Of a DNA stretch of 64,000 nt, positions 27 through 16,357 are shown in pieces. This stretch comes from Clostridiales bacterium (GTDB lineage Bacteria; Bacillota; Clostridia; Lachnospirales; Lachnospiraceae): contig QAKV01000028.1 of NCBI GenBank assembly GCA_003343625.1, positions 62,001 to 126,000 on the forward strand. The letters run 5' to 3'. A program made the translations under genes and the position numbers. The notes under the pieces were generated by a model. That model was not told the origin of the DNA and ran no database searches. It was given only the letters and a program-made list of their open reading frames with translations. Every line of letters starts with the position of its first letter. Positions within the stretch are counted from its first letter, which is position 1.

Positions 27-1019
27 ATGAGAAAACTCAGTAAAAAGGCCGGGATCACCATCTTCACTGTCGCGATGGTGATCCTCGGCGCGATTATCGT
101 CCTTTATCACAATCCCCTGGCGGATCCGCAGGACGAACTGATGAAAAAAGGGATCGCATGTGCCCTGATCGCGGCCGCAATCATCGCGTTCATCCTTTTA
201 TATGACAAGATTACGGTGCTGCCCAAAGAGCTGTATCAGAACCGGCGCCTGATCTGGAAGCTGGCCAAAAGCGATTTTAAAAAACGGTATGCGGGTTCCT
301 ACATGGGGGCTTTCTGGGCCATGGTCCAGCCGGTGATCACGGTGGCCATGTATTACGTGGTGTTCACGATCCTGATGCCCCAGAAACAGGGAATCGCTTC
401 CGGCGGGGAACTGGATGTTCCCTTCGTGCTGTTTCTGACGGCCGGGCTGGTGCCCTGGTTCTATTTTTCCGAGGCTCTTACCAGCGCCATGACCGCCCTT
501 CTGGAGTACAACTATCTGGTGAAAAAGGTGGTCTTTAAAATCAGCATCCTGCCCATCATCAAAATCATCGCTGCGACGTTCATCCACGCCTTTTTCGTCA
601 TCGTCCTTCTGCTGATCGCCTGCTTTTACGGCTATTATCCCAGCCTCTACACCCTGCAGGTCTTCTACTACAGCGCCTGCATGTTCATTCTCGTGCTGGC
701 CATCAGCTACACCACCTGCTCCATCGTGATCTTTTTCAGAGATCTGCAGCAGATCGTCAACATCCTCCTGCAGGTGGGCATGTGGGCTACTCCAGTGCTC
801 TGGAACATCAACCAGTTCAGCGAAGAAATTCAGATGCTGGTGAAAATCAATCCCCTGGTCTACATCGTGGAAGGATACCGCAGCGCGGTTTATGGAAAAC
901 AATGGTTCTGGGAGGATTTCTATTCCACCGTTTACTTCTGGATCATCACCATCGTCCTGTTCGGAATCGGTGCGCTGATCTTCAAAAAACTGAAAATCCA
1001 CTTCGCGGATATCATGTAA
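27..1019 (+). CDS. wzm: ABC-2 polysaccharide exporter permease (Wzm/TagG type)
   Basis: A 330-residue integral membrane protein and the likely channel half of an ABC transporter that moves an undecaprenyl-linked polysaccharide across the membrane. Two hydrophobic segments (about residues 10-27 and 42-58) come first. The hallmark ABC-2 region follows: a basic coupling-helix stretch with KSDFKKRYAGSYMGAFWA near residue 84, then about six membrane segments. The next gene, 23 bp downstream, is the matching ATPase with a polysaccharide-type C-terminal extension, which identifies the substrate class. The extra N-terminal hairpin makes it longer than typical 260-residue Wzm proteins. The ribosome binding site is weak, and the gene probably continues an operon that begins before the window. 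TagG (teichoic acid) is the alternative name; the GT neighbours favour a heteropolysaccharide. Confidence 0.88.
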   Translation: MRKLSKKAGITIFTVAMVILGAIIVLYHNPLADPQDELMKKGIACALIAAAIIAFILLYDKITVLPKELYQNRRLIWKLAKSDFKKRYAGSYMGAFWAMVQPVITVAMYYVVFTILMPQKQGIASGGELDVPFVLFLTAGLVPWFYFSEALTSAMTALLEYNYLVKKVVFKISILPIIKIIAATFIHAFFVIVLLLIACFYGYYPSLYTLQVFYYSACMFILVLAISYTTCSIVIFFRDLQQIVNILLQVGMWATPVLWNINQFSEEIQMLVKINPLVYIVEGYRSAVYGKQWFWEDFYSTVYFWIITIVLFGIGALIFKKLKIHFADIM

Positions 1020-1042: not shown

Positions 1043-2353
1043 ATGGAAGAAAGAGAACTGGCCATCCACGTGGAGGGGCTGAGCAAAGTATATAAACTGT
1101 ACAACCGCAACCGGGATCGCCTGCTGGAATCGCTGGGCCTCGTGAGAAAGCCCCGTTCCACCAGGCATTACGCCCTGCGGGATGTGAGCCTGGATATTTA
1201 CAAGGGCGAGACGGTGGGAATCATCGGAACCAACGGTTCCGGAAAATCCACCATTTTGAAAATCATCACCGGCGTGTTGCACGAAACCGAAGGGACGGTG
1301 CAGGTCAATGGCCGCATCTCGGCACTGCTGGAGCTGGGCGCCGGCTTCAATATGGAATACAACGGCATCGAAAATATCTACTTAAACGGCACGATGATCG
1401 GCTTTTCGGAGAAAGAAATCGACGAAAAGCTTCAGGACATTCTGGATTTCGCGGACATCGGGGACTACGTGTATCAGCCGGTGAAAACCTATTCCAGCGG
1501 TATGTTCGTTCGGCTGGCCTTTGCGGTGGCCATCAATATCGATCCGGAGATCCTCATCGTGGACGAAGCCCTTTCCGTGGGAGATGTATTTTTCCAGGCC
1601 AAATGCTATCGGAAATTCGAAGAATTCAAGAAAAAAGGCAAAACCATTCTGTTCGTCAGTCATGACTTGAGCGCGATCAGCAAATACTGTGACAGAGCGG
1701 TGCTCTTAAATCAGGGCGTGAAGCTGGGAGAAGGAAGCCCAAAGGAGATGATCGATGCCTACAAGCAGGTGCTGGTGGGACAGTATGAGACGCCTAAGGC
1801 GACGGAGAACGTGCCGGATCTGACGGCGGATCCTCAGGTGCGGGACGCGTTGGAACGGCAGCAGCAGGAGCAGAAGGGGGAGCATCCCCAGGCGGGAGTG
1901 AATCCGGAAACCCTGGAGTATGGGACGAAGGAAGCGGAAATCTGCGAATATTTCCTCACGGATCAAAACGGGGTTCGCACCACGGCCATTCTGAAGGGAG
2001 ATCCTTTCACCATGCACATGCGGGTGAAGATCCATCAGGATCTTCCGGCGCCCATTTTCGCCCTTTCCATCAAAAACATCAAGGGGGTGGAGATCACCGG
2101 CACCAATACGATGTTCGAGAAGAGCTTTTTAGACAGCGTGAAGGCCGGCCAGACGCTGGAGATCACATTTTCCCAGAGGATGCTTTTGCAGGGCGGGGAC
2201 TATCTGATCTCCCTGGGCGTGACCGGATACGAGAAGGACGAGTTCACCGTTTACCACCGGCTTTACGACGTGCTCAACATCACGGTGGTCTCGGATAAGG
2301 ATACGGTGGGCTACTTTGACATGGAATCGAAAGTGGAAGTAAAGGAAATCTGA
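1043..2353 (+). CDS. wzt: Polysaccharide ABC transporter ATPase with C-terminal carbohydrate-recognition domain (Wzt type)
   Basis: A 436-residue nucleotide-binding partner of the upstream permease. Walker A is GTNGSGKST (residues 62-70), the signature is YSSGMFVRLAFA, and Walker B with the switch region is ILIVDEALSVGD. About 170 residues follow the ATPase, from about residue 270: an acidic, Gln-rich linker and then a beta-rich domain. This matches Wzt proteins whose C-terminal jelly-roll reads the modified non-reducing end of the glycan before export. ATG 1043 was chosen because AGAGAGGA lies just upstream and the ATPase fold begins there; the frame stays open further upstream. The following gene encodes a putative chain terminator, which fits such a recognition mechanism. 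Confidence 0.9.
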   Translation: MEERELAIHVEGLSKVYKLYNRNRDRLLESLGLVRKPRSTRHYALRDVSLDIYKGETVGIIGTNGSGKSTILKIITGVLHETEGTVQVNGRISALLELGAGFNMEYNGIENIYLNGTMIGFSEKEIDEKLQDILDFADIGDYVYQPVKTYSSGMFVRLAFAVAINIDPEILIVDEALSVGDVFFQAKCYRKFEEFKKKGKTILFVSHDLSAISKYCDRAVLLNQGVKLGEGSPKEMIDAYKQVLVGQYETPKATENVPDLTADPQVRDALERQQQEQKGEHPQAGVNPETLEYGTKEAEICEYFLTDQNGVRTTAILKGDPFTMHMRVKIHQDLPAPIFALSIKNIKGVEITGTNTMFEKSFLDSVKAGQTLEITFSQRMLLQGGDYLISLGVTGYEKDEFTVYHRLYDVLNITVVSDKDTVGYFDMESKVEVKEI

Positions 2354-2357
2354 GCGT

Positions 2358-4505
2358 ATGGGAACTGACAGGACGGAGAAAATCGGCGGCGTGACCCTGG
2401 ATTACAGCCGCTATCCCGGGGAGGATTTTTACTGCGACGGAGCGGCGGAGGACGAGCTTTTGCAGATCGTCAAAACCGTGCCAAAAGAGCGCTATCCGGA
2501 AGTGATTCGGGAAAAGCGCAGCTGGGAAGTGCTCTATCATCTTTCCGATCTGCGGGAAAATATCGTGAAATGGCTGCCCATGGACAAAGGGATGAAAGTT
2601 CTGGAAGTGGGATCCGGCTGCGGCGCCGTCACGGGCTGCCTTTCCCGGAAAGCGGGAAGCGTCACCTGCGTGGATCTGTCCAGAAAACGGAGCCTGATTA
2701 ACGCATGGCGCCACCGGGAACGGGATAACATCGCCATTCATGTAGGAAATTTTCAGGATATCGAGCCCGCTCTGGATACGGATTACGATTATGTCTGCCT
2801 GATCGGGGTATTCGAATACGGACAGAGCTACATCGATACGAAGACTCCCTTCCATGATTTCTACAAAATCGTAAAAAAGCACGTCCGTCCCGGAGGACAT
2901 GTGGTCATCGCCATCGAAAACAAGATGGGCCTAAAATACTGGGCCGGCTGCCGGGAGGATCATCTGGGCACCTTCTTTTCCGGGCTGGAGGACTATCCGC
3001 AGGGGGGCGTCGTGCGCACTTTCACGAAAAACGGCCTGGAGAAAATCCTGCGGGAGTGTATGGAAGAGGACTATCGCTTTTACTATCCGTATCCGGATTA
3101 TAAGTTCATGACCATGGCATACTCCGACCGATATCTGCCGAAGGTGGGGGAACTGACCAACAACCTTCGAAATTTCGACCGGGACAGGATGCTCTTGTTC
3201 GACGAAAAAGAGGTGTTCGACATGATCATTCGGGAGGGGTTGTTTCCGCTGTACAGCAATTCATATCTGGTGCTCACGGGACCGGAGGTGGAGACGGATT
3301 ACAGCCGTTTTTCCAACGACCGGGCCCGCCATCTGTGTATCCGTACCGACATCGGACATACGGCGGAAGGAAAGAGATATGTGCGCAAGATTGCGGACAA
3401 CGAGGCTGCGGACGCCCATATCCGACAGCTGGCTGAGCACTTCCGGGTTTTCGGGGATCGGTTTGCGGGCAGCGGCCTGGAGATCAACCGGCTCGTTCCA
3501 GGGAAGGAGCCGGATGGGCGCAGCAGCGTTTCGCTGGAATTCCTGGAGGATGCCGTCACCCTGGAGGAGCTGCTGGATACCAGCCTGCAGGAAGACGATG
3601 AAGCGGAATTTCGTTCGCTGTTTGAAAAATACCGGTCGTTGGTGTCCTGGAATGCGGAAGGGAACCTTCAGGATTACGATCTGATTTTCCCGAACATCTG
3701 CGTACAGGGAGAAAAATGGACCGCCATCGATTATGAATGGGTCACCCGCGAGCGGACGCCGGACGACATTGTGCGCCGGGCGCTGTACTGCTATGTGCTG
3801 GAAAACGAAAAGAGGGCCAGCCATCCCATTCTGCAGAAAATACTGGAAGAAACGGGAATGGACGAAGAAGCATTCGCCCGGCAAAAAGAGCAGGAGCTGG
3901 CTTTTCAGGAGGAAATCCTGAGGGAAGCGGACGGCGGAAAGCGGACGGCGGTGACGGACATGCGGCATCTGATCGGCCACATGGCGGTGCCCTATCAGCA
4001 GTTTTTCGCCCATGCGGAGCGCAAGATCGTGCAGGTGTTCGAGGACATGGGAGAGGGATACAGCCAGGAACATTCCCGATATCTTCGCGATGCCTACACG
4101 GCGGACGATCGGATTTGCGCCGAGATCCGGTGCGCAGCAGGGACGAAAGGGATCCGCCTGGATCCCGCGGAGATGCCCTGTCTGGCGCGCCTGGAAGCCG
4201 TGACATGGCGGGACAGAAAGCTGACCCCGGCCCAGCTGGCCCGTGCGGTAGTGACCAACGGGGAAGTGCTGGGGGACGGCAGCGGCGTGCTGACCCGGGG
4301 GACAGATGGAATGACCGCCGTCTTATTCGATCACGGCGATCCCAACATCAACGTTCGTCTGGATGCGCTGGAGGAGACCGGCGCGGAAGGGAACGGCGAG
4401 GGAATTTTGACGATCGAAATGCAGATCCTGTGGCTTTCCCCTGAGATGTTGAAGGATCTGAAGGCCCGGATGACGAGGAGGAAACGCTTTTGGTTTCAAA
4501 AATAA
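2358..4505 (+). CDS. Methyltransferase-kinase fusion, WbdD-like chain-terminator candidate
   Basis: A 715-residue multidomain protein. Residues 45-230 form a class I SAM methyltransferase, with motif I VLEVGSGCGAV at 81-91 and the acidic motif CVDLS at 104-108. Residues 315-475 look like an APH/protein-kinase-like fold: candidate ATP lysine K344, hinge LEFLEDAVTLEELL, a catalytic-loop-like DLIFPN (D441, N446) and an IDYE metal motif (D458). A helical segment (475-600) and a beta-rich tail follow. E. coli WbdD, which ends O9a polymannose chains by phosphorylation and methylation, has the same order (methyltransferase, kinase, coiled coil, C-terminal part) and similar length. The gene lies 4 bp after wzt and overlaps the next GT. 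The methyltransferase call is firm; the kinase call is inference from motifs, and the usual His before the catalytic Asp is a Tyr. Confidence 0.72.
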   Translation: MGTDRTEKIGGVTLDYSRYPGEDFYCDGAAEDELLQIVKTVPKERYPEVIREKRSWEVLYHLSDLRENIVKWLPMDKGMKVLEVGSGCGAVTGCLSRKAGSVTCVDLSRKRSLINAWRHRERDNIAIHVGNFQDIEPALDTDYDYVCLIGVFEYGQSYIDTKTPFHDFYKIVKKHVRPGGHVVIAIENKMGLKYWAGCREDHLGTFFSGLEDYPQGGVVRTFTKNGLEKILRECMEEDYRFYYPYPDYKFMTMAYSDRYLPKVGELTNNLRNFDRDRMLLFDEKEVFDMIIREGLFPLYSNSYLVLTGPEVETDYSRFSNDRARHLCIRTDIGHTAEGKRYVRKIADNEAADAHIRQLAEHFRVFGDRFAGSGLEINRLVPGKEPDGRSSVSLEFLEDAVTLEELLDTSLQEDDEAEFRSLFEKYRSLVSWNAEGNLQDYDLIFPNICVQGEKWTAIDYEWVTRERTPDDIVRRALYCYVLENEKRASHPILQKILEETGMDEEAFARQKEQELAFQEEILREADGGKRTAVTDMRHLIGHMAVPYQQFFAHAERKIVQVFEDMGEGYSQEHSRYLRDAYTADDRICAEIRCAAGTKGIRLDPAEMPCLARLEAVTWRDRKLTPAQLARAVVTNGEVLGDGSGVLTRGTDGMTAVLFDHGDPNINVRLDALEETGAEGNGEGILTIEMQILWLSPEMLKDLKARMTRRKRFWFQK

Positions 4506-6493
4506 AGAATCGGTTTCAGAAGAAACTTGTGCAAAGGGAGTACAGGCGCTACGAAGAACGGATCGCGGCACAGGATCTTTCCTATGACGAATGGATCCGG
4601 GAAAAGGAGCGGCAGGAGAGGGAATGCCTGTCCCTGAAGGGGAAGGATCTGCGCATGGAGGTCGTTTCCTATGAGGAGTGCGGGGAAAAGTTCTCTTTCG
4701 CCAACTACAAAGCCGCGGATATTCTGGTCTTTCACGCGCCGGACGGGACGCCGGACATGCGGGAACTGGCCCTGGTGGCCGACTATTTCGCGCGGCACCC
4801 CGGAACGGTGGTTCTCTATGCGGATGAGGATGAAATCGGCGCGGACGGCGAACGGAAAAATCCCTGGCTCAAACCGGACTGGTCTCCGGATACCCTCATC
4901 TCCTATTTCTATTTCGGCGGCTTTTTCGCGGTTCGCAGGGAGGAAGGCAGCCATGTACAATGGCTGGGCGAGCGGGACGTGCGGCGCAATCTGTACGATT
5001 TCGCCCTCAAGGCAGTCGAGATCACGGGGAGCGCGGATCACATCGACAGCGTGCTCTTTCACCGCAGCAACATCGAGCCCTGGGGGCAGGAGGAAAGTTA
5101 TGAGGATCTGAAGCGGGCGGCCTATGAGCGCAGAGGCTGGCCGGTAAGGCCGGAGGGAAAGGTTTCCGTGATCATCCCCAGCAAGGACAACCCCAGGGTG
5201 CTTTCCGACTGCATTCACTCCGTTATGGAGGCCAGCACCTGGAAAGATTTCGAGATCATCGTGGTGGACAACGGCAGCAGCGCCGAAAACAGAAAGCGGA
5301 TCGAGAGGATGCGGGATATGCTCCAGCCCCAATACCGTTTTTCGTATCACTATGAGCCCATGGAGTTCAATTTTTCCAGGATGTGCAACATCGGCGTGTC
5401 CATGGCTTCCGGGGATTATGTGCTTTTGCTGAACGACGATATCGAAATCACCCAGGAGGACTGGCTGGAGAAGATGATGGAAAAGGCGGTGCTGCCCCAC
5501 GTGGGGGCGGTTGGCGCCAAACTCATCTATCCGGGGACGGAGATCATCCAGCACGCGGGAATCACCAATATCCACCTGGGGCCGGCCCACAAACTGCAGT
5601 TTCGGTCGGACGCTAACGAATACTATTTCCTGAAAAACCGCCTGGCCTTCGATGTGCTGGGCGTGACCGGGGCCTGCCTGTTGGTGAAAAGGAGCGTTTA
5701 CGAAGAGGCGGGAGGTTTCAACGAAAAGCTTCGGGTGGCATTCAACGACGTGGAGTTTTGTTACCATCTCCACGATCTGGGCTATGTGAACGTGGTGCGA
5801 AACGATGTTTCCCTGATCCATCACGAATCCTTAAGCCGCGGGGCGGACGACAGCACGGAAAAGCTGCGCAGATTGCACCATGAACTGAACATGCTCTATG
5901 AGCTGCATCCGTCCCTGTATAACCGGGATCCTTATTATCACCGGTATTTGGTGCGGGATGTGCTGGATGCGGAATATTATACCGGCTGCCGCTATGACTT
6001 CGAGCGGCGGGTGGAAAAGGTGGCGCCGGAGAAGATCGAAGGCGGGCTTTTGCCGGAGTGGCACAACGAAGTGCTTCGGATGGGCATCGAATTCGCCGGG
6101 GACATGGAAAAATGGCAGACGGGAAAAGGCGGGCGCGGGGACTGGCTCATCCAGGGCTGGGCCTGGGCGCTGATGGTGGATAACTGCCGCTATCGGTTCA
6201 ATCTGCTCTTAAAGCCTGTGGAAAAGGGGTATCTGGCGAAAGGATCCAGCGAAGCGGCGGAGCCTGCCGACCGGGAAAATGTCTGGAAGCTGTCCTGCGC
6301 CAGGCAGTATCGGCCGGATATCGACGCGAACCTGAACGGGATCATTCATACGAAGCTGCCCGGCGTCTGTGTGGCCTTTGAGCGGGGCAGCCTGCCTGCC
6401 GGAGAATATCTGATCGGCTTTCTGTGGGAGGACAACTGCTCCAGGCAGAAGCTCTACCGGTTCAGCGCAGAAACCATCGCGATTACCGCATGA
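4490..6493 (+). CDS. Two-part glycosyltransferase, family 2
   Basis: 667 residues. The N-terminal part (about 60-200) is a decayed GT-A half that keeps YADEDE near residue 110 and the KPDWSPD pattern found in rhamnan-type GT2 enzymes. Residues 225-440 are a complete GT2 domain beginning VSVIIPSKDN, with the acidic motif LNDD near 315 and the GACLLV and FNDVEF acceptor-side motifs. A beta-rich C-terminal domain of about 110 residues follows. The start is TTG at 4490, supported by GAGGAGGAA ending 5 bp before it; the gene overlaps the preceding stop by 16 bp, so coupled translation is likely. It should add sugars to the lipid-linked glycan at the cytoplasmic face. Donor and linkage cannot be read from sequence. 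Confidence 0.85.
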   Translation: MVSKIKNRFQKKLVQREYRRYEERIAAQDLSYDEWIREKERQERECLSLKGKDLRMEVVSYEECGEKFSFANYKAADILVFHAPDGTPDMRELALVADYFARHPGTVVLYADEDEIGADGERKNPWLKPDWSPDTLISYFYFGGFFAVRREEGSHVQWLGERDVRRNLYDFALKAVEITGSADHIDSVLFHRSNIEPWGQEESYEDLKRAAYERRGWPVRPEGKVSVIIPSKDNPRVLSDCIHSVMEASTWKDFEIIVVDNGSSAENRKRIERMRDMLQPQYRFSYHYEPMEFNFSRMCNIGVSMASGDYVLLLNDDIEITQEDWLEKMMEKAVLPHVGAVGAKLIYPGTEIIQHAGITNIHLGPAHKLQFRSDANEYYFLKNRLAFDVLGVTGACLLVKRSVYEEAGGFNEKLRVAFNDVEFCYHLHDLGYVNVVRNDVSLIHHESLSRGADDSTEKLRRLHHELNMLYELHPSLYNRDPYYHRYLVRDVLDAEYYTGCRYDFERRVEKVAPEKIEGGLLPEWHNEVLRMGIEFAGDMEKWQTGKGGRGDWLIQGWAWALMVDNCRYRFNLLLKPVEKGYLAKGSSEAAEPADRENVWKLSCARQYRPDIDANLNGIIHTKLPGVCVAFERGSLPAGEYLIGFLWEDNCSRQKLYRFSAETIAITA

Positions 6494-8472
6494 AAGAGGA
6501 CGGAAAGATCGATATGGAAGAGAAGAAAGACTATCGGGACGCTTACGAAAAGGAACATTATAAAGCGGTCTATCTGGCAAACCGGGTGGCCGAACTCGAA
6601 GATCAGGTGGATGACCTGACCTTCAGGCTCAACCGGATCAAGAACAATCCGCTTTGGAAAGCCTCCGCCCCGGCCAGAAAATGCATGCATTTTTGCATTC
6701 GCCAGGCGGATCGGCTGAAAAACTGCGGCAGTTTCAGCGGAGTGATCCAGAAGATCCGCTATAAATCTTATGAGAAAAAGGCCATGACCCATTACGGAAA
6801 GGCCAGCTTCCCGTCGCAGGAAGAGCGGAAACGGCAGGAGGAGACAGTATTCGACCGGATGGTGAAAATCAGCATTCTGGTGCCGCTCTGGAATACGCCG
6901 CAGGATTTCCTGCACGAGATGATCGATTCCGTGCAATGGCAGACTTACGGCAACTGGGAGCTCTGTCTGGCGGACGGTTCGGACGATACCCACGCTTACG
7001 TGGGGGAGGTCTGCCGGGAATATGCTGCGAAGGATGGAAGGATCGTGTATCGAAAACTCCCCGAAAACGAGGGGATTTCCGGAAACACCAACGAGTGTCT
7101 CAAGCTGGCCACGGGGGAGTATATCGGGCTCTTCGATCATGACGATATTCTCCATCCCTGCGCCCTGTACGAGTATGCGAAAGCCATCAACGAACGGGGA
7201 GCGGACTATATCTACTGCGACGAGGCCACGTTTAAGGACGGCGACATCGACAGGATGATCACCATGCATTTCAAGCCGGACTATGCCATCGATAACCTGA
7301 GGGCCAACAACTACATCTGCCATTTCAGCGTGTTTTCCAGGGAACTGCTGGACGGAACAGAGCTGTTTCGCACCAAATTCGACGGCAGCCAGGATCACGA
7401 CATGATCCTGCGGCTGACGGATCGCGCCCAAAATATCGTGCACGTGCCCAAACTGCTGTACTACTGGCGATCCCATGCGGGCAGCGTGGCCGCCAATATC
7501 GAGGCCAAGCCCTATGCCATCGAATCCGCCAGAAACGCGGTGGCGGATCATCTGCGCAAGCACGGATTCGAGCATTTCACCATCACCAGCACGAGGGCTT
7601 TCGAGACGATTTTCAAGATCACCTACGAGATCATCGGCGAACCGAAGATCTCTATCGTGATACCGAACAAAGACCATGTGGAGGATCTGCGCCGGTGCGT
7701 TACTTCCATCTTCGAAAAGTCCACCTGGGAAAATTATGAGATCATCGTCGTGGAGAACAACAGCGAGACCCGGGAGATCTTTTCCTATTATGACGAGCTC
7801 AGGAACAATCCCAGAATCAAAATCGTGACCTGGGAGGGGACGTTCAATTATTCCGCGGTGAACAATTTCGGGGTTGCGGCGGCGGAGGGGGACTATATTC
7901 TCCTTTTGAACAACGACACGCAGGTGATCACGGTGAACTGGATGGAGGAGCTTCTGATGTACGCTCAGCGGCCGGACGTGGGGGCAGTGGGCGGCAAGCT
8001 CTACTATGGCGACAAAACGATCCAGCATGCCGGGGTGGTCATCGGGCTGGGTGCTCACCGCACCGCCGGGCACGTGCATTACCGGCAGAAACGGGAAAAT
8101 TTGGGATACATGGGACGCCTCTGTTATGCTCAGGATATGACGGCGGTCACCGGGGCCTGCCTGATGGTAAAAAAATCTCTGTATGAGCAGGCAGGCGGGC
8201 TGGACGAGAGCTTTGCGATTTCCCTGAACGATGTGGATTTCTGCCTGAAGCTGCGCAAAGCCGGTTATCTGAACGTATTCACACCTTTCGCGGAGCTGTA
8301 TCACTATGAATCCGTGTCCAGAGGGCTGGACGATCACGGGGAAAAGGCGAAGCGCTATGACGAGGAATCCGCCCGCTTTCGGGAAAAATGGAAGGAGGAG
8401 CTGGCGGCGGGAGACCCGTATTTCAATCCGAATTTCTCTCTCGATAAGCCGGACTTTTCTTTACGGGTGTGA
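6490..8472 (+). CDS. Tandem-domain glycosyltransferase, family 2
   Basis: 660 residues with a short coiled coil at about 25-55 and two full GT2 domains. The first begins KISILVPLWN near residue 125 and carries FDHDD near 215. The second begins ISIVIPNKDH near 387 and carries LNNDT near 474, then GACLMV and LNDVDF. Two active-site sets in one chain suggest a polymerising enzyme that adds two sugars in turn. ATG 6490 overlaps the previous stop (ATGA), giving translational coupling; an internal ATG at 6514 is an alternative. The stop at 8472 falls within the promoter of the next gene, so the export operon may end here. The donor is probably a dTDP- or UDP-sugar but is not determined. Confidence 0.86.
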   Translation: MKEDGKIDMEEKKDYRDAYEKEHYKAVYLANRVAELEDQVDDLTFRLNRIKNNPLWKASAPARKCMHFCIRQADRLKNCGSFSGVIQKIRYKSYEKKAMTHYGKASFPSQEERKRQEETVFDRMVKISILVPLWNTPQDFLHEMIDSVQWQTYGNWELCLADGSDDTHAYVGEVCREYAAKDGRIVYRKLPENEGISGNTNECLKLATGEYIGLFDHDDILHPCALYEYAKAINERGADYIYCDEATFKDGDIDRMITMHFKPDYAIDNLRANNYICHFSVFSRELLDGTELFRTKFDGSQDHDMILRLTDRAQNIVHVPKLLYYWRSHAGSVAANIEAKPYAIESARNAVADHLRKHGFEHFTITSTRAFETIFKITYEIIGEPKISIVIPNKDHVEDLRRCVTSIFEKSTWENYEIIVVENNSETREIFSYYDELRNNPRIKIVTWEGTFNYSAVNNFGVAAAEGDYILLLNNDTQVITVNWMEELLMYAQRPDVGAVGGKLYYGDKTIQHAGVVIGLGAHRTAGHVHYRQKRENLGYMGRLCYAQDMTAVTGACLMVKKSLYEQAGGLDESFAISLNDVDFCLKLRKAGYLNVFTPFAELYHYESVSRGLDDHGEKAKRYDEESARFREKWKEELAAGDPYFNPNFSLDKPDFSLRV

Positions 8473-8526: not shown

Positions 8527-10248
8527 ATGGGTTACATGGAGGAGTACAGATTCTGGCTCGAGGACTCTTACTTCGACGAAGGGACGAAGGAAGAGCTGCG
8601 CAAGATCGCGGACGATCCTGCGGAAATCGAAGACAGGTTCTATAAGGAGCTGGAATTTGGAACGGGCGGTCTCCGCGGTGTGATCGGCGCCGGCACGAAC
8701 CGGATGAACATCTATACCGTGAGAAAGGCGACCCAGGGTCTGGCCAACTACATACTCAAACAGGGAGGGGCGGACAAGGGGGTCGCCATCGCTTACGATT
8801 CCCGGTATTTCTCTCCGGAATTCGCGGATGAGGCGGCCAGGTGCATGGCGGCCAACGGCATCAAAGCCTACATCTTCGACGAGCTGCGCCCCACTCCGGA
8901 GCTGTCTTTCGCGCTTCGTACGCTGGGCTGCATCTCCGGTATTGTGGTGACTGCCAGCCACAATCCGCCGGAATACAACGGCTATAAAGTTTACTGGGAG
9001 GACGGCGCACAGGTTACTGCGCCCAGGGATAGGGAAATCATCACGGAAGTCAAGAACGTGACCGATTATCACACTGTGAAGACGATGCCCAAAGAAGAGG
9101 CCATGAAAGCCGGTCTGTACCAGATGATCGGGGAAGAGATCGACGTGGCTTACATGAAGGAACTCAAAAAGCAGATCATCCACCCGGAGATCATTCAGGA
9201 GATGGCGGAAGATTTGAAGATCGTCTATACGCCGTTCCACGGCACCGGGAATAAGCCCGTGAGAAGGATTCTGGCGGAGCTGGGCTTCAAGCATGTATAC
9301 GTGGTGCCCGAACAGGAGCGCCCGGATCCCGCTTTCACAACTCTGGATTATCCCAATCCCGAGGATCCCAAAGCGTTCAAGCTGGCCCTCGAACTGGCGA
9401 AGAAGGTGGACGCGGACATCGTCCTGGCGACGGATCCGGATGCGGATCGCCTTGGCATCTATGCGAAGGATACCGGGAGCGGGGAATACGTTTCCTTCAC
9501 CGGCAACATGTCCGGCATGCTGATCGCGGAATATATTTTGAGAGAGCGGACAGCGACCGGAACCATGCCGGAGGATCCGGTGATGGTATCCACCATCGTG
9601 ACCACCAACATGGCGGCCGCCATCGCAGCGGATTACAACGTGAAGTTCGTTGAGGTTCTGACCGGCTTCAAATATATCGGCGAGCAGATCAAGCTGATGG
9701 AGCAGTCCGGAAAAGGGCATTATGTATTCGGCCTGGAAGAATCCTATGGCTGTCTGGCGGGCACCCATGCGAGGGACAAGGACGCTGTCGTGGCGGTGAT
9801 GTGCCTGTGCGAGATGGCCGCGTGGTGCAAGAAGCACGGCAAGACCTGCTGGGATCAGATGATCGAGCTGTACGAGAAGTACGGTTATTACAAGGAAACC
9901 CAGTATGCCATCACCTTAAAGGGGATCGACGGAGCGGCCCAGATCGCGCAGATCATGGACAAGCTGAGAAGCAATCCCCCGAGAAACTTCGGCGACCTGG
10001 AAGTATTGGAGATACGGGACTACGAGAAGGATCAGGTGACCGATCTTCAGACGGGAGAAGTCAGCCCCACCGGCCTGCCCCAGTCCAATGTGCTCTATTT
10101 CGACCTCACCAACAATTCCTGGTGCTGCGCCCGTCCGTCCGGGACAGAACCCAAGATCAAATTCTACATGGGCGTGAAGGGCAACAGCCTGGAAGATGCG
10201 CAGCAGAAGGTGGAGAAGTTGACGGAAGATTTAAAGGCGGTACTGTAA
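8527..10248 (+). CDS. pgcA: Phosphoglucomutase/phosphomannomutase
   Basis: A 573-residue alpha-D-phosphohexomutase that interconverts hexose 6-phosphate and hexose 1-phosphate, the entry to nucleotide-sugar donors used by the surrounding glycosyltransferases. The catalytic phosphoserine is S144 in TASHNPPEYNGYK. The metal-binding loop is DPDADR (303-308), the sugar-recognition motif is GLEESYG near 403, and the C-terminal phosphate-binding loop is RPSGTEPKIKFY. Length and motifs match the long Firmicutes phosphoglucomutase group (PgcA) rather than the 450-residue GlmM or ManB groups. It has its own promoter and is flanked by glycosyltransferases on both sides, which points to polysaccharide precursor supply. 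Glucose versus mannose preference cannot be decided by eye. Confidence 0.92.
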   Translation: MGYMEEYRFWLEDSYFDEGTKEELRKIADDPAEIEDRFYKELEFGTGGLRGVIGAGTNRMNIYTVRKATQGLANYILKQGGADKGVAIAYDSRYFSPEFADEAARCMAANGIKAYIFDELRPTPELSFALRTLGCISGIVVTASHNPPEYNGYKVYWEDGAQVTAPRDREIITEVKNVTDYHTVKTMPKEEAMKAGLYQMIGEEIDVAYMKELKKQIIHPEIIQEMAEDLKIVYTPFHGTGNKPVRRILAELGFKHVYVVPEQERPDPAFTTLDYPNPEDPKAFKLALELAKKVDADIVLATDPDADRLGIYAKDTGSGEYVSFTGNMSGMLIAEYILRERTATGTMPEDPVMVSTIVTTNMAAAIAADYNVKFVEVLTGFKYIGEQIKLMEQSGKGHYVFGLEESYGCLAGTHARDKDAVVAVMCLCEMAAWCKKHGKTCWDQMIELYEKYGYYKETQYAITLKGIDGAAQIAQIMDKLRSNPPRNFGDLEVLEIRDYEKDQVTDLQTGEVSPTGLPQSNVLYFDLTNNSWCCARPSGTEPKIKFYMGVKGNSLEDAQQKVEKLTEDLKAVL

Positions 10249-10374: not shown

Positions 10375-11715
10375 ATGGCGGTGATCAGTCGTTCCAATTT
10401 GAAAAAGACATGGTATTATATGAAAAAGAACGGCCTGTCTGCCGCGGTTCTGGCAGTTTTGGAGAGGCTGGAGACGGCAAAAGAGGTTCCTTATGTTTAT
10501 GAGCCGCCGCGGGAAGAAATCCTGGAGCGGCAGCGAAGCAGCGGCCTGCAGGGGCCGTCTTTTTCAGTGGTGGTGCCCGCCTATGCCACGAGACCGGATC
10601 ATTTGCGCGCCCTGTTGGATGGGATGAAAGCGCAGACTTATCCGAATTGGGAATTGTTGATCGCGGACGCCACGGCGGACGGGTCCGTATTCAAAGCGGC
10701 GGAAAACTGGGCCGGAGAATGTGGAATCCCGCTTGTCGGGGCTACAGAAGGACAGGCTTTTTTGCAGAGATGTATCCGGTATCTGAAACTGGAGAAAAAT
10801 CTGGGGATCGCCGGAAATACCAACCGGGGGATCGAAATGGCCCGGGGAGAATATACGGGACTGTTGGATCACGACGATCTGCTGACGCCGGACGCCCTCT
10901 ACGAGATGGCGCGGGCGGCGATGAGGGAGAAAGAGACGGGAATGCGGCCGGATGTGCTGTATTCCGATGAAGATAAATGCGATGATGCGGCGATACATTT
11001 TTACGAGCCGCATCAAAAGACGGATTTCAATGCGGATCTTTTGCTGACGAACAATTATATCTGCCACTTTCTGGTGATGGAGACGGGGCTCTTGCAGCGG
11101 CTTTTGCTTCGGCCCGGGTATGACGGAGCGCAGGACTACGATCTGGTGCTGCGAGCCATGACCGAAGGCGCCCGTTTTTTTCACGTGCCGAAAGTGCTGT
11201 ATCACTGGCGCTGCCATCAGGATTCCACCGCGGCGAATCCCGGGAGCAAGGCTTATGCCTACGAGGCAGGAAAGCGGGCGGTGGAGGACTGTTGCCGCAG
11301 GGCCGGATGGAAAGCGAGCGTCTCCCATCTGAAACATTTGGGCTTCTATCGGGTAGACTATGAAGGAGGCGTGTTCGCCCAGCGCCCCGAAATCGGGGCC
11401 GTGGCGGGACCGTTGCCCGGCGGAAGGCGTTTCAGGAGCGGAATCTATCTGGCGGACGGAAGGATGCTCTACGAGGGGCTGCGGAAGGGATTTTCCGGGC
11501 CCATGCACCGGGCTGCGCTGCAGCAGGATGTGAGGATTGCGGATCTGCGCGGCATGAAGGTCAGACCGGCGATGGAACCGATCTGGAGAACCGCCCTGGA
11601 GCGGATGAAGGGATCGCGCGAGGAGGACGTCTTCGCACAGAGTGCGGCATTCTGCAAAGAAATGGAAAAAAGAGGCCTGACGATCCTGTGGGATCCCCAG
11701 GGGCCATGTGCTTAA
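10375..11715 (+). CDS. Glycosyltransferase, family 2 (rhamnan type)
   Basis: 446 residues. The N-terminus has the LKKTWYYMKKNGL motif typical of clostridial rhamnan-type GT2 enzymes. The GT-A domain begins FSVVVPAYAT near residue 62, with LDHDD near 165 and YSDEDK near 200; a NYICHF acceptor motif and YHWR follow. The last 110 residues resemble the C-terminal half of a second, degraded GT domain (EIGAVAGPL onwards). AGGAG lies 14 bp before ATG 10375, which is rather far; ATG 10411 is possible but would cut the conserved N-terminal helix. It should act in the same polysaccharide pathway. The donor is unknown. Confidence 0.82.
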   Translation: MAVISRSNLKKTWYYMKKNGLSAAVLAVLERLETAKEVPYVYEPPREEILERQRSSGLQGPSFSVVVPAYATRPDHLRALLDGMKAQTYPNWELLIADATADGSVFKAAENWAGECGIPLVGATEGQAFLQRCIRYLKLEKNLGIAGNTNRGIEMARGEYTGLLDHDDLLTPDALYEMARAAMREKETGMRPDVLYSDEDKCDDAAIHFYEPHQKTDFNADLLLTNNYICHFLVMETGLLQRLLLRPGYDGAQDYDLVLRAMTEGARFFHVPKVLYHWRCHQDSTAANPGSKAYAYEAGKRAVEDCCRRAGWKASVSHLKHLGFYRVDYEGGVFAQRPEIGAVAGPLPGGRRFRSGIYLADGRMLYEGLRKGFSGPMHRAALQQDVRIADLRGMKVRPAMEPIWRTALERMKGSREEDVFAQSAAFCKEMEKRGLTILWDPQGPCA

Positions 11716-11727
11716 AGGAGCGGCGGT

Positions 11728-12684
11728 TTGAAGACGACGGTGATCATCCCCAATTACAACGGGATCGATTTTTTGAAAAATTGTCTGGAAAGTACAACCA
11801 AAAGCTCGGTTCCTGCGTCTGTTATTGTGGTCGATAACGGCTCCGGGGACGGAAGCCGGGAGTGGGTAAAAGAAAACTATCCCCGGGTAAAGGTGATCGC
11901 ATTCCCCGAAAACCGGGGATTCTGCGCTGCGGTAAACGTCGGGATCCGGGCGGCCGAAACGCCCTATGTGTTTTTGCTCAACAACGACACGACTGTAGAA
12001 CCGGACTGCATTCAGCGGCTGGAAGCGGCCATGGACGGGACGAAGAGGATCTTTTCCGTGGGAGCCAAAATGTTGTCCATGCAGAATCCGGAGCTGGTGG
12101 ATACGGCAGGGGATCTGTATTCCGCATTCGGGTGGGCCTACGCTATCGGAAAGGGGAAAAGGAGCGAACGTTATATCAGGCGGCGGGCGGTGTTTTCCAA
12201 CTGCGGAGGAGCCGTGTTGTACCGAAAGGATTATCTGGAACGAACCGGGCTGTTCGACGAGAACCATTTCGCCTATCTGGAGGATGTGGATCTGGGCTAT
12301 CGGGCCAGGATCGCGGGTTTTCGCAACGTGATGGAGCCGGCGGCGGTGGTGTATCACGCCGGAAGCGGTTTTTCGGGTTCACGATACAACGCGTTCAAAA
12401 TCGCGCATTCTTCCCGGAACAACGTCTATCTGGTTTACAAAAACATGCCGCTTTTGCAACTGATTCTGAACGCGCCGTTTCTTCTGGCGGGGTTTGCGGT
12501 GAAATATTTGTTTTTTGCAAAAAAAGGGTTCGGGAAGCTCTACCGGGAGGGGCTGGCGCGGGGGATCGCCCTGTGCAAAAGTCCGGAAGGAAAGAAAAGA
12601 AAAGTGCGGTTTGAGTGGAAAAATATCGGCCATTATGCCGGAATCCAGTTGGAGTTGTGGGCGAACCTGTTCCGACGGTTCTGA
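11728..12684 (+). CDS. Glycosyltransferase, family 2 (WbbL/rhamnosyltransferase-like)
   Basis: 318 residues with an N-terminal GT-A domain beginning TTVIIPNYNG. The nucleotide-binding motif VVDNGSGDGS, the acidic motif LLNNDT near residue 90 and the acceptor-side ENHFAYLEDVDLGYR pattern are all present. A C-terminal amphipathic and basic region (about 225-318) probably lies on the membrane. This layout is usual for single-addition rhamnosyltransferases such as WbbL. The start is TTG 11728, supported by AAAGGAG 7 bp upstream; the gap to the previous stop is only 12 bp. It ends just before the promoter of the glycosylphosphotransferase gene. The rhamnose assignment is by family resemblance only. 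Confidence 0.84.
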   Translation: MKTTVIIPNYNGIDFLKNCLESTTKSSVPASVIVVDNGSGDGSREWVKENYPRVKVIAFPENRGFCAAVNVGIRAAETPYVFLLNNDTTVEPDCIQRLEAAMDGTKRIFSVGAKMLSMQNPELVDTAGDLYSAFGWAYAIGKGKRSERYIRRRAVFSNCGGAVLYRKDYLERTGLFDENHFAYLEDVDLGYRARIAGFRNVMEPAAVVYHAGSGFSGSRYNAFKIAHSSRNNVYLVYKNMPLLQLILNAPFLLAGFAVKYLFFAKKGFGKLYREGLARGIALCKSPEGKKRKVRFEWKNIGHYAGIQLELWANLFRRF

Positions 12685-12697
12685 CAGGGGAAAAATC

Positions 12698-12726
12698 TTG
12701 TACTTTTCTGGCTGATATTGTATACT
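12698..12726 (+). promoter_or_regulatory. Promoter for the polyprenyl glycosylphosphotransferase
   Basis: TTGTAC (12698-12703), a 17-bp spacer and TATACT (12721-12726). An in-frame TTG at 12718 overlaps the -10, so it cannot be the start of this transcript. That supports ATG 12754 as the true start. Confidence 0.7.
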
Positions 12727-12753
12727 ACAACTGATACATGGGGAACGGACGGA

Positions 12754-14172
12754 ATGATCAAGGATAACCAGAAGTTTTTTAACCGGCTCCACGTGGTCGT
12801 GGACGCAGTCGTCATCGCCGGCTCCTATCTGCTGGCGTGGTGGCTGATGTTCGGGAGCTGGTTTGCGGATAAAAGCATAGGCGTGCTGCACGTGGGCATC
12901 TATCTCAGCGCCCTCTATTTCGTGGTGCCCGGTTATCTGATTCTGTATTCCGGATTCCGGTTGTACGCGCCCAAACGGGTGCAGCGCACGGAAAATGAAA
13001 TCCTGAATATCCTCAAGGCCAACGTGGTTGGGATCACCCTGTTTCTGGCGGTCCTGTTTCTGGCGAACTCCTGGTTTTCCCAGATGAAGGACTTTTCCCG
13101 CTCCATGCTGGCCCTGTTTGCTGTTTTAAATACGGTCAATTCCGTTTTGGTGAGGGCCCTGATCCGGAGGATCCTTCATCTTTTCCGGAAAAAGGGGTAT
13201 AATTTAAAACATATTCTTCTGGTCGGGTATTCCCGGGCGGCGGAAGCCTATATAGACCGCATCATGGCCAATCCCCAGTGGGGCTATGTGGTGCGCGGCA
13301 TTCTGGATGATAACGTGCCCAGAGGCGCCGTGTATAAGGGCGTGAAGGTTCTGGGCTCCATCGATAATCTGCTCTATATCCTGCCTGAAAACAAGCTGGA
13401 CGAGATCGCGGTGACCCTGTCCCTGTCCGATTACGACAGGCTGGAGGAGATCGTCAACCTCTGCGAGAAGTCCGGCGTGCATACGAAGTTTATCCCTGAC
13501 TACAACAGCCTGATTCCCGGCAAACCATATACGGAGGACCTGAGCGGCCTTCCGGTGATCAATATCCGTTATGTCCCGCTGTCCAATACGATGAACGCGG
13601 TGGCAAAGCGCGCGGTTGACATCGTCGGATCGCTGTGCGGGCTGATCGTATTGTCCCCCCTTTTGCTGACGGTGGCCCTGATCGTCAGATTTACCAGCAG
13701 GGGGCCTGTGATATTTTCCCAGGAGCGGGTGGGGAGGCATAACCGGATCTTTAAGATGTACAAATTCCGGACGATGTACGTGCAGGACGCTTCGGAAGAG
13801 AAGAAAGGCTGGACCACGAGAAACGATCCCCGGGTGACGAAGGTGGGGCGTTTTCTGCGGCGTACCAGCATCGACGAGCTGCCCCAGCTGTTCAATATCC
13901 TCATCGGGAACATGAGCCTGGTGGGGCCCAGGCCGGAACGGCCCCAGTATGTGGAAAAGTTCAAAGAAGAGATCCCGCGCTATATGATCAAACATCAGGT
14001 GCGGCCGGGTCTTACCGGATGGGCCCAGATCAACGGTTATCGGGGGGATACTTCCATCCGGAAACGGATCGAGTACGACATTTACTACATCGAAAACTGG
14101 AGCATGGAATTCGACTTTAAGATCATGTTCCTGACCATTTTCAAAGGATTCATCAACGAAAATGCATACTGA
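12754..14172 (+). CDS. Undecaprenyl-phosphate glycosylphosphotransferase (WcaJ/CpsE type)
   Basis: 472 residues. It transfers a sugar 1-phosphate from a nucleotide sugar to undecaprenyl phosphate, the first committed step of polysaccharide synthesis. Four N-terminal membrane segments (to about residue 145) are followed by a CoA-binding-like domain starting HILLVGYSRAAEAY. The C-terminal bacterial sugar-transferase domain has KRAVDIVGS, VIFSQERVG, FKMYKFRTM, the TSIDELPQL region, LVGPRPERP and VRPGLTGWAQI. It has its own promoter although the exporter lies 12 kb upstream, so the initiating enzyme can be controlled separately. The LCP gene follows 16 bp later. The donor is probably UDP-glucose or UDP-galactose; this is not determined. 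Confidence 0.93.
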   Translation: MIKDNQKFFNRLHVVVDAVVIAGSYLLAWWLMFGSWFADKSIGVLHVGIYLSALYFVVPGYLILYSGFRLYAPKRVQRTENEILNILKANVVGITLFLAVLFLANSWFSQMKDFSRSMLALFAVLNTVNSVLVRALIRRILHLFRKKGYNLKHILLVGYSRAAEAYIDRIMANPQWGYVVRGILDDNVPRGAVYKGVKVLGSIDNLLYILPENKLDEIAVTLSLSDYDRLEEIVNLCEKSGVHTKFIPDYNSLIPGKPYTEDLSGLPVINIRYVPLSNTMNAVAKRAVDIVGSLCGLIVLSPLLLTVALIVRFTSRGPVIFSQERVGRHNRIFKMYKFRTMYVQDASEEKKGWTTRNDPRVTKVGRFLRRTSIDELPQLFNILIGNMSLVGPRPERPQYVEKFKEEIPRYMIKHQVRPGLTGWAQINGYRGDTSIRKRIEYDIYYIENWSMEFDFKIMFLTIFKGFINENAY

Positions 14173-14188
14173 CAGGAGAGAAAAAGGA

Positions 14189-15328
14189 ATGGCATCGAAT
14201 ACGTCCAACAGAGGAAAAAACAACAGGAGCGTCCATAGCGCCAAAACTGTGAAAAACGGGAAGAGGATCCCTTCCAAAAAGAGAAAGGCCAGGCAGCAGC
14301 GCAGGATCATCCTGTTTGCCGTGGAGCTCATCGCGCTGGTGGTTTTGGTAGGGGCTATCGTAGCGGTCAGCACGATCGGGAAGATGGAGCGGGTTCATAT
14401 TAACGAGGAGAATATCGTCTTCAATGAGAGCGTGGAAGAGAATCAGGAGATGAAGGGATACCGCAATATCGCCCTGTTCGCGGTGGATTCCCGGAAGGGA
14501 AAGCTGGGCAAGGGACAGCGGACGGATACGATTATGATCGCTTCCATCAATCAGGACACGGGGGACGTGAAACTCTGTTCGGTCTACCGGGATACTTATC
14601 TGAATCTGGGAAACGACAAATATAACAAAGCCAACGCCGCCTATGCGCAGGGCGGCCCGGAGCAGGCTCTCAACATGCTCAACTGGAACTTCGACATGAA
14701 TATCACGGAGTATATTACGGTGGGCTTCGACGCCCTGATCGAAGTGATCGATGCCCTGGGAGGGGTACAGATCGACGTGGCGGAGAACGAGATCAACGAT
14801 CTGAACAATTATCAGCGCAGCATGTTCGTGGAGGACGAGAACGATCCGCTCAACGAGAATATCGTCAAGGTGACAGAACCCGGGCTTCAGACTTTGAACG
14901 GACTGCAGGCCACCGCATACTGCCGGATCCGGTATGTGGGCGATGACTACGGACGTACCGAGCGCCAGCGCAAGGTGCTGATGGCGTGCATGGACAAAGC
15001 CAAACAGGCAAGCCCCACGACGCTGGTGGAGATTTTGAACAGCGCCATCGACGACGTTTCCACCAACCTGGATCTGGGCGAAATGGCTTCTATTTTGCAG
15101 GATGTGAACAGCTATCAGATCGTGGCGCAGGACGGCGTTCCCTTCGAGAGCAATCGCAGCACCGGCAATATCGGTTCCAAAGGGGACTGCGTTGTTCCTC
15201 TGGATCTGACGGACAACGTGACGATGCTGCACGAGTTTCTGTTCGGCGTAGAGAATTACGCTCCCTCCGAACAGGTGCAGGAATACAGCGAAAAGATCAA
15301 AAGCGATACGGCGGCTTATGTGAGGTAG
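14189..15328 (+). CDS. LytR-CpsA-Psr (LCP) family glycopolymer ligase
   Basis: 379 residues with a basic cytoplasmic N-terminus (about 1-42), one membrane segment (about 43-64, starting IILFAVELIALVVLVGAIV) and an extracellular LCP domain. Recognisable LCP features are NIALFAVDSR, GQRTDTIMIASI, the arginine-containing SVYRDTYL, the DALIEVIDALGGVQIDV block and YCRIRY...GRTERQRKVL. LCP proteins transfer undecaprenyl-pyrophosphate-linked polymers onto peptidoglycan, which fits the glycosyltransferase and exporter locus before it. ATG 14189 was preferred over ATG 14162 because ACAGGAGAG sits 8-10 bp before it and 14162 overlaps the previous stop. A strong hairpin terminator follows. Confidence 0.93.
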   Translation: MASNTSNRGKNNRSVHSAKTVKNGKRIPSKKRKARQQRRIILFAVELIALVVLVGAIVAVSTIGKMERVHINEENIVFNESVEENQEMKGYRNIALFAVDSRKGKLGKGQRTDTIMIASINQDTGDVKLCSVYRDTYLNLGNDKYNKANAAYAQGGPEQALNMLNWNFDMNITEYITVGFDALIEVIDALGGVQIDVAENEINDLNNYQRSMFVEDENDPLNENIVKVTEPGLQTLNGLQATAYCRIRYVGDDYGRTERQRKVLMACMDKAKQASPTTLVEILNSAIDDVSTNLDLGEMASILQDVNSYQIVAQDGVPFESNRSTGNIGSKGDCVVPLDLTDNVTMLHEFLFGVENYAPSEQVQEYSEKIKSDTAAYVR

Positions 15329-15338
15329 GCGTATCCGG

Positions 15339-15401
15339 GCGGACAGGGGATGCAGGCGAAGCGCGGTCTTCGCGCGGCATCCCCTGTCGTCCGCTTTGTT
15401 T
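15339..15401 (+). terminator. Rho-independent terminator after the LCP gene
   Basis: GCGGACAGGGGATGC (15339-15353) pairs with GCATCCCCTGTC-GTCCGC (15377-15394), with a second small hairpin in the loop (GCGAAG...CTTCGC), and ends in TTTGTTT. It should separate the WcaJ-LCP unit from the next glycosyltransferase. Confidence 0.8.
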
Positions 15402-15433
15402 GGAAAGTGACGAAGAAGCAGGGAGGAGTTTCG

Positions 15434-16357
15434 ATGAGGGTGGATGTGATTATTCCCACGCTTCGCCCCGGGGCGCGTTTTCTTTCGCTGCTCCAGCGGC
15501 TGGAGGAACAGACCTGTCCGGTAAACCGGGTGATCGTGATGAATACCGAGGAGGAGAGGGCGGAAGATCCCTGGGACGATCCGGATTTTTTTGCGCGGCA
15601 TCCGAAAGTCGTGGTAAAGAATCTGAAGCCGGAGGAGTTCGATCACGGCGCCACCCGGAACGAGGGAGTGGCTCTATCCGATGCGGATATTTTTGTGTGC
15701 ATGACTCAGGATGCGCTGCCGGCGGATCGGGAACTGATCCGCCGCCTGGCGGACGCTCTTTGCGCGGAGGGGAGGATTGCCGTAGCATACGCCAGACAGC
15801 TGCCGGAGGAGAATAGCGGACGGATCGAGCGTTTTACCCGACAGTTCAACTACCCGGAACGATCCGCGGTGAAGGGGCAGGCGGATCTGGCGCGGCTGGG
15901 AATTAAGACCTATTTTTGCTCCAACGTATGCGCGGCCTATCGACGGGATGTGTTCGATCGGTTGGGAGGGTTCACATCTCCCACGATTTTCAACGAGGAT
16001 ATGATCTTCGCGGCCGGGGCGGTGAAGGCGGGTTTTAAAATCGCGTACGCGGCGGATGCCCGGGTCGTTCATTCCCACAACTATACAGGGCGACAGCAGT
16101 TTTCCAGAAATTTCGATCTGGGGGTTTCCCACGCCCAGTATCCGAAAGTCTTTGCGGATGTGCCTCCGGAAGGGGAGGGAATGAGGCTGGTGGGGCGGAC
16201 TGCGGCTTACCTGCTGAGAACCTGTCCATGGCTGCTGCCGCGGCTGATCTGGCAGAGCGGGGCAAAATGGGCCGGCTACCGGATGGGCCGTCGGTACGAC
16301 AGGCTGCCTCTGTGGCTGGTGAAGCGGTGCAGTTCCCAAAAAACTTACTGGAAATGA
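15434..16357 (+). CDS. Glycosyltransferase, family 2 (rhamnosyltransferase-like)
   Basis: 307 residues, one GT-A domain from RVDVIIPTLRPG at residue 2. Features include the FDHGATRNEG pattern typical of rhamnosyltransferases, CMTQDALP in the place of the DXD motif, and FNEDMIFAA toward the acceptor side. The C-terminal 60 residues are basic and probably membrane-attached. The start is ATG 15434 with GGAGGAG at 15422-15428. It stands alone between a terminator and the htrA promoter. It probably decorates or extends the same wall polysaccharide, although its separation would also allow a different acceptor. Confidence 0.84.
   Translation: MRVDVIIPTLRPGARFLSLLQRLEEQTCPVNRVIVMNTEEERAEDPWDDPDFFARHPKVVVKNLKPEEFDHGATRNEGVALSDADIFVCMTQDALPADRELIRRLADALCAEGRIAVAYARQLPEENSGRIERFTRQFNYPERSAVKGQADLARLGIKTYFCSNVCAAYRRDVFDRLGGFTSPTIFNEDMIFAAGAVKAGFKIAYAADARVVHSHNYTGRQQFSRNFDLGVSHAQYPKVFADVPPEGEGMRLVGRTAAYLLRTCPWLLPRLIWQSGAKWAGYRMGRRYDRLPLWLVKRCSSQKTYWK

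Follow-up and report, generated by a model that had tools for sequence, protein, structure and literature searches.

The window analysed here is a 64,000-nucleotide stretch of DNA from a Clostridiales bacterium (Lachnospiraceae; contig QAKV01000028.1, positions 62,001 to 126,000). It opens with genes for an ATP-binding cassette (ABC) exporter of the Wzm–Wzt type, followed by a gene for a 715-residue protein that combines a methyltransferase with a kinase-like domain and that we propose to be a terminator of polysaccharide chains. The Wzt gene ends with a TGA at 2351-2353 and the ATG of the proposed terminator lies at 2358, leaving a gap of 4 bases; the open reading frames (ORFs) and this spacing, read directly from the window DNA, are as the original prediction gave them. 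The terminator gene shares a 16-base overlap with the next gene, which encodes a glycosyltransferase of the GT2 family, and the predicted enzyme of the LytR-CpsA-Psr (LCP) family was found in the same locus (Table 1).

Both catalytic domains claimed for the 715-residue protein were recovered. The methyltransferase was recognized by Pfam, and its residues Y25, Y60, G85, G87 and Y154 are invariant in a 63-row alignment of window-side relatives, as is D441 of the kinase. Pfam returned no kinase family for the protein itself, nor among the 25 listed of 45 families for the 63-row alignment; over 62 rows, APH appeared in 2 of 62 with a best E value of 0.065 (among the 25 listed of 48 families). The kinase call therefore rests on the fold instead. 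When the domain was modelled alone, which is the modelling check that had been suggested for this region, it folded as an APH/PRPK-like kinase with a mean pLDDT of 94.1. Judging by their titles, the best 50 Foldseek rows for this domain were kinases, phosphotransferases or complexes (best E 4.2e-6); they include two pre-40S ribosome entries and one MSMEG_1954 entry, the titles of which name no chain. Weak profile matches to GCN2 and JAK1 were also seen (E about 0.001-0.01). WaaP is a kinase of the lipopolysaccharide core. Neither WbdD nor AmiN (6sul), described as the kinase closest to the Klebsiella pneumoniae O7 enzyme (PMC11231755), was among the best 50 Foldseek rows, which excludes neither. 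D441, N446 and D458 stand where they had been claimed, and are invariant in the 63-row and 62-row window-side alignments and in 121 Pseudomonas-side rows. K344 (the beta-3 lysine; window 3387-3389) is invariant in the 63 window-side rows, and the invariant helix-C residue of this family is H354 (window 3417-3419) rather than the usual Glu. In the predicted structure, this is a kinase-like (APH-type) fold with a catalytic Asp, an Asn five residues on and a metal Asp.

Behind the kinase, the original prediction expected a helical segment like that of WbdD from Escherichia coli O9/O9a. This part was not borne out: the structure model has mostly beta strands (residues ~558-692) and a single terminal helix (695-714). 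Searches of Pfam and of PDB sequences gave nothing convincing for the sandwich-like domain, whose residues R600, D602, P603 and D661 are conserved on both the window side and the Pseudomonas side.

At the level of sequence, the Wzt has the genuine C-terminal domain that was claimed for it, placed behind the ATPase domain. Its best PDB sequence match is 2r5o, the aligned stretch of which has the same sequence as the tail of Wzt from E. coli HS O9; the Aquifex tail matched more weakly (E 0.025 or worse). Recognition of capped chain ends by Wzt is reported as established in other systems (PMC9445017, PMC11231755). Wzm–Wzt of Aquifex aeolicus, as described in PMC9445017, shares a Wzt with a C-terminal cap-binding domain, and the cap given there is a methyl without phosphate, unlike the cap predicted here. 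The closest relative has a second, weaker Wzt_C match (67 bits) away from the locus (L075; G001 contig 184, 7094-7507), and its genome may hold a second cap-dependent export system.

Table 1 Features of the exporter and terminator locus, in window coordinates
Feature	Position	Strand	Evidence
Wzm-like ABC-2 permease	27..1019	+	Pfam ABC2_membrane E 2.7e-14
Wzt-like ABC ATPase with C-terminal carbohydrate-binding domain	1043..2353	+	ABC_tran E 4e-23, Wzt_C E 6.2e-42; 38% identity over 432 columns to E. coli HS O9 Wzt
Wzt_C domain, Wzt residues 291-427	1913..2323	+	Pfam PF14524; PDB 2r5o E 1.5e-8
Methyltransferase-kinase, 715 amino acids (aa), proposed chain terminator	2358..4505	+	
SAM-dependent methyltransferase domain, ~residues 1-309	2358..3284	+	Pfam Methyltransf_23 E 1.8e-8
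Kinase domain, ~residues 310-545	3285..3992	+	Model pLDDT 94.1, Foldseek, VIA-align, residue invariance
Kinase residues D441, N446, D458	3678-3680, 3693-3695, 3729-3731	+	
C-terminal beta-rich (sandwich-like) domain, ~residues 546-700	3993..4457	+	Strands in model, conservation (R600, D602, P603, D661 invariant)
GT2-family glycosyltransferase, start codon TTG as listed	4490..6493	+	Pfam Glycos_transf_2 E 4.6e-21
Dual GT2 glycosyltransferase, proposed polymerase	6484..8472	+	Two GT2 stretches; 39.6% identity over 540 columns to C-terminal half of P. asturiensis P0126
Short heptad (coiled-coil-like) stretch, N-terminus of dual GT2	6517..6648	+	Home-made heptad score 0.85
Phosphoglucomutase/phosphomannomutase family enzyme	8527..10248	+	Pfam PGM_PMM domains
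GT2-family glycosyltransferase	10375..11715	+	Pfam
GT2-family glycosyltransferase	11728..12684	+	Pfam
Initiating undecaprenyl-phosphate sugar phosphotransferase	12718..14172	+	TIGR03023 507.6 bits, above cut-off
LCP family glycopolymer transferase	14162..15328	+	Pfam LytR_cpsA_psr E 2.4e-34
GT2-family glycosyltransferase	15350..16357	+	Pfam Glycos_transf_2 E 7.2e-12

When plasmids were searched with tblastn, two records were obtained, one from Citrobacter and one from Pseudomonas. The Pseudomonas asturiensis protein, P0126, has 1457 residues, is encoded directly behind genes for an ABC permease and an ATPase, carries two GT2 modules at its C-terminal end and matches the family profile from end to end (191.8 bits, positions 23-676 of 691). 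Citrobacter P0125 matched in the methyltransferase only (163.5 bits) and was left out of the kinase claim. The architecture of P0126 is that described for K. pneumoniae ORF6-O7, an enzyme reported to phosphorylate, and partly to methyl-phosphorylate, O-3 of the terminal rhamnose, with no product from the D441A variant (PMC11231755). Our comparison with O7 was made through P0126 and its relatives, and the Klebsiella protein itself is likened by published architecture. P0126 has the methyltransferase residues Y28, Y66, G91, G93, E112 and Y158 at the numbers given in that paper; on the window side, the position of E112 is D in 50 of 63 rows and E in 13. At 73 positions, the same residue occupies at least 95% of both the 63 window-side and the 121 Pseudomonas-side rows, and these positions include D441, N446, D458, E460, W461, R600, D602, P603 and D661. 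As far as PMC11231755 describes it, ORF6-O7-N shares with the window protein a methyltransferase, an unannotated kinase and an Ig-like/CBM-like domain in this order, the kinase Asp, the methyltransferase residues (numbered via P0126), two GT2 modules within the system and ABC export. The differences are that here GT2-GT2 is a separate gene, the terminator is without a coiled coil and the locus is Gram-positive, with an LCP enzyme; the orthologues of ORF6-O7-N given in that paper come from alphaproteobacteria, gammaproteobacteria and cyanobacteria. The dual GT2 matches the C-terminal half of P0126, so that what is a single gene in Pseudomonas is represented by two in the window. Going by these alignments, the 715-residue protein is homologous to proteins of O7-terminator architecture, and the variant found in the window is split, with the terminator standing apart from the GT2-GT2 polymerase half. 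Pseudomonas has many fused proteins of this family (L077 11818-16191; P0127-P0246), of about 1410 to 1640 residues and, where named, called only "glycosyltransferase".

We scored heptads with a home-made measure, on which the 715-residue protein reached at most 0.65, compared with 0.82-0.90 for WbdD. The coil of P0126 scored only 0.65-0.68, barely above that maximum, so its coil rests mainly on the published architecture. The heptad stretch of the dual GT2 scored at least 0.7 in 27 of 46 orthologues, as against 5.3% of shuffles.

We examined how regularly the enzyme and the cap-reading domain occur together. Among 68 loci, 67 had the methyltransferase, 57 of which also had a Wzt with Wzt_C. 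Three of the ten without it (L025, L027 and L046) start no more than 350 bases from the contig start, L049 has a glycosyltransferase upstream, and six belong to a subfamily lacking the sandwich domain. We also searched 200 genomes from the family of G001 (the genome behind locus L001, titled Lachnospiraceae) and found the enzyme, at a threshold of E 1e-30, in 92 genomes and Wzt_C in 118. In 86 of the 92 genomes, no more than 6 kb separated Wzt_C from the enzyme, and in 75 no more than 1 kb; the enzyme genomes outside the 6-kb limit were G003, G037, G069, G079, G119 and G189. Fisher's test gave p 6.6e-27 for the pairing, which, as the genomes are related, is not a true probability. Of the 101 Wzt_C matches scoring at least 120 bits, 86 had the enzyme no further than 6 kb away, compared with 0 of the 35 weaker ones; this cut was picked after the scores had been seen, and without it the figure is 86 of 136. 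Eleven of the 15 high-scoring exceptions were examined (not G173, G037, G119 and G069), and in all 11, one of the first two ORFs behind Wzt matched the kinase profile, with a methyltransferase match as well in 10; several matches were weak (single pieces from 10 bits). In a sample of 299 genomes from the phylum, the enzyme was found in 9 (E 1e-25). Judged by these profile matches, the putative terminator occurs commonly within a single gut family of Gram-positives and is tightly paired with one type of Wzt_C. The central claim of the original prediction, a cap writer beside a cap-reading Wzt in an LCP locus, stands to this extent: the domains are real and their pairing recurs.

The arrangement of the modules varies. 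In eight loci hand-picked from the 92 positive genomes, all with a Wzt bearing Wzt_C in the same locus, we found kinase-sandwich-GT2-GT2 in one ORF with the methyltransferase separate (L080, L083), methyltransferase-kinase-glycosyltransferase ORFs (L082, L085), the methyltransferase and kinase as two genes (L084) and the arrangement of the window (L078). G007 was selected as a probable fusion because of a listed open frame of 1458 residues, but its actual ORF has 675 residues and is unfused. The methyltransferase and kinase are also separate ORFs beside Wzt_C in L051, L052, L056 and L063, and so these domains need not be joined in one polypeptide to function. At L053, which encodes a short enzyme of the sandwich-less subfamily, the neighbours are glycosyltransferases, a TupA-like ATP-grasp protein and a CDP-glycerol glycerophosphotransferase.

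Lipopolysaccharide was looked for by way of LpxC, which was absent from 7 of 7 genomes of relatives; the control was found in 4 of 14 genomes, including E. coli. In both annotated relatives (L001 and L007), rmlB, rmlA and rmlC lie upstream of wzm, a region downstream of which the window begins. This position of the rml genes suggests rhamnose, and the polymer is probably rhamnose-containing. Directly before the rml genes, both loci encode a choline-binding-repeat protein with a GH25 lysozyme-type domain (L001 261-2813, L007 13-3015).

We consider it fairly probable that the locus encodes an O7-like terminator, split from its polymerase, that closes a probably rhamnose-containing polymer with methyl-phosphate, a cap that Wzt would read before the chain is exported and ligated by the LCP enzyme. 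The TIGR03023-type transferase would start the lipid-linked polymer, and the GT2 enzymes, including the dual GT2, would extend it in the cytoplasm. The kinase domain, with D441 as the catalytic and D458 as the metal residue, would phosphorylate the non-reducing terminal sugar, and the methyltransferase domain would then methylate the terminal phosphate, at which point elongation would stop. The Wzt tail would recognize the cap, Wzm–Wzt would export the capped chain and the LCP enzyme would ligate it to the wall. We infer these reactions, their order, the capped sugar, the need for a cap in export, the control of chain length and the attachment to the wall from homology and context.

Several observations weigh against this reading. 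The coiled coil reported for all ORF6-O7-N orthologues (PMC11231755) is absent from the 715-residue polypeptide, and for this reason we class the protein as a split variant that would work like ORF6-O7-N, not as a member of that group. On the Pseudomonas side, K344 is replaced by Y, H or N, and no conserved residue corresponds to H354. Some of the kinase matches in the divergent loci are weak. Finally, the subfamily of about 560 residues without a sandwich match (L053, L054, L055, L057, L059 and L060) has no wzm or wzt in the sequenced DNA around it, so the link between this type of enzyme and ABC export has exceptions.

Chains would still be terminated, and their ends read by Wzt, if the cap had a different chemistry. 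Examples are an unmethylated phosphate, a cyclic phosphate or an O-methyl group that the methyltransferase places on the sugar itself, in which case the kinase would act elsewhere or be inactive. Precedents are described in the 2-O-methyl cap made by Geobacillus WsaE (PMC2943079) and the 2,3-cyclophospho-rhamnose that ends the Clostridioides difficile S-layer glycan (PMC6254364), and the occurrence of methyltransferase and kinase as separate genes in several relatives would fit as well. The invariance of the kinase catalytic residues across all three sets of rows and the joint travel of the two domains, which extends to the 11 divergent loci with their partly weak matches, make this unlikely. 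Also quite unlikely is a decorating role, in which the enzyme would modify side groups or internal residues of the polymer, or of some other glycan, and terminate no chain. The Wzt-less loci of the sandwich-less subfamily point that way, as do the CDP-glycerol glycerophosphotransferase and TupA-like protein at L053; against it, the sandwich-bearing type adjoins Wzt_C nearly throughout, and the homologous architecture belongs to a terminator described as proven (PMC11231755).

True WbdD orthology, in which the 715-residue protein would unite the kinase with a coiled-coil ruler, is extremely improbable: domain order, length (715 versus 708 residues), the order wzm-wzt-terminator-glycosyltransferase in the E. 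coli HS O9 locus (L069) and whole-model Foldseek (WbdD entries at ranks 1-3, 6 and 11) all agree with it, but we rejected orthology because BLASTP (best 19.6 bits, E 0.48, not significant), hhalign (88 methyltransferase columns aligned, probability 37) and the family profile (0.7 bits for WbdD, methyltransferase only) gave no homology across the kinase, and because the model has strands where WbdD has its coil. Of the original label "WbdD-like", the methyltransferase-then-kinase order beside wzm-wzt and the similar length hold, and the family assignment is wrong. WbdD as described in PMC3482155 shares with the window protein these traits, the place right after wzm-wzt and an O9a-type Wzt tail, whereas the sequence relation is limited to the common methyltransferase core and a beta-rich domain here replaces the coiled coil.

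Returning to the split O7-like terminator, capped Gram-positive glycans are already known from Geobacillus (methyl) and C. difficile (cyclic phosphate), according to PMC2943079 and PMC6254364. The Geobacillus system resembles the one proposed here in being Gram-positive, with a rhamnan, Wzm–Wzt, a methyltransferase with two glycosyltransferase modules and a presumed terminating cap; it differs in that the cap is 2-O-methyl, the glycan belongs to an S-layer protein and no kinase is mentioned in the passages of PMC2943079 drawn on here. The S-layer glycan of C. difficile Ox247 is likened by the description of the glycan: it shares a Gram-positive host, rhamnose, an ABC transporter and phosphate on the non-reducing terminal rhamnose, and differs in that the phosphate is a cyclic 2,3-phosphate and that the corresponding passages of PMC6254364 name no cap enzyme. 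Its authors speculate on an O9a-like role for the cap (PMC6254364). Among the titles and abstract openings found by searching open-access papers, a collection without most subscription papers and preprints, we recognized no methyltransferase-kinase terminator in a Gram-positive.

A broader view, for which we would put the chances at somewhat below even, is that much of one gut Gram-positive family (Lachnospiraceae by most locus titles) makes a wall-linked rhamnose polymer that is closed by methyl-phosphate and exported only if capped. Methyltransferase, kinase, sandwich and polymerase would be shuffled, separate or fused, around one dedicated Wzt_C type, and in the form found in the window, length would be set without a covalent coiled-coil ruler joining terminator and polymerase. 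Length control by phosphate and then methyl at the chain end has been described before for lipopolysaccharide in other bacteria. If the view is correct, the quality control by which O-antigens of lipopolysaccharide are capped, read and exported also acts on surface polymers of Gram-positives in the gut, and the predicted end group should be directly detectable by 31P NMR. The varied gene arrangements within one family would then amount to a natural experiment on length sensing by a terminator that is not fused to its polymerase. One locus of the sandwich-less subfamily, L060, lies on a contig titled Bacteroidales bacterium inside a genome (G003) drawn as a member of the G001 family, and this title may be wrong.

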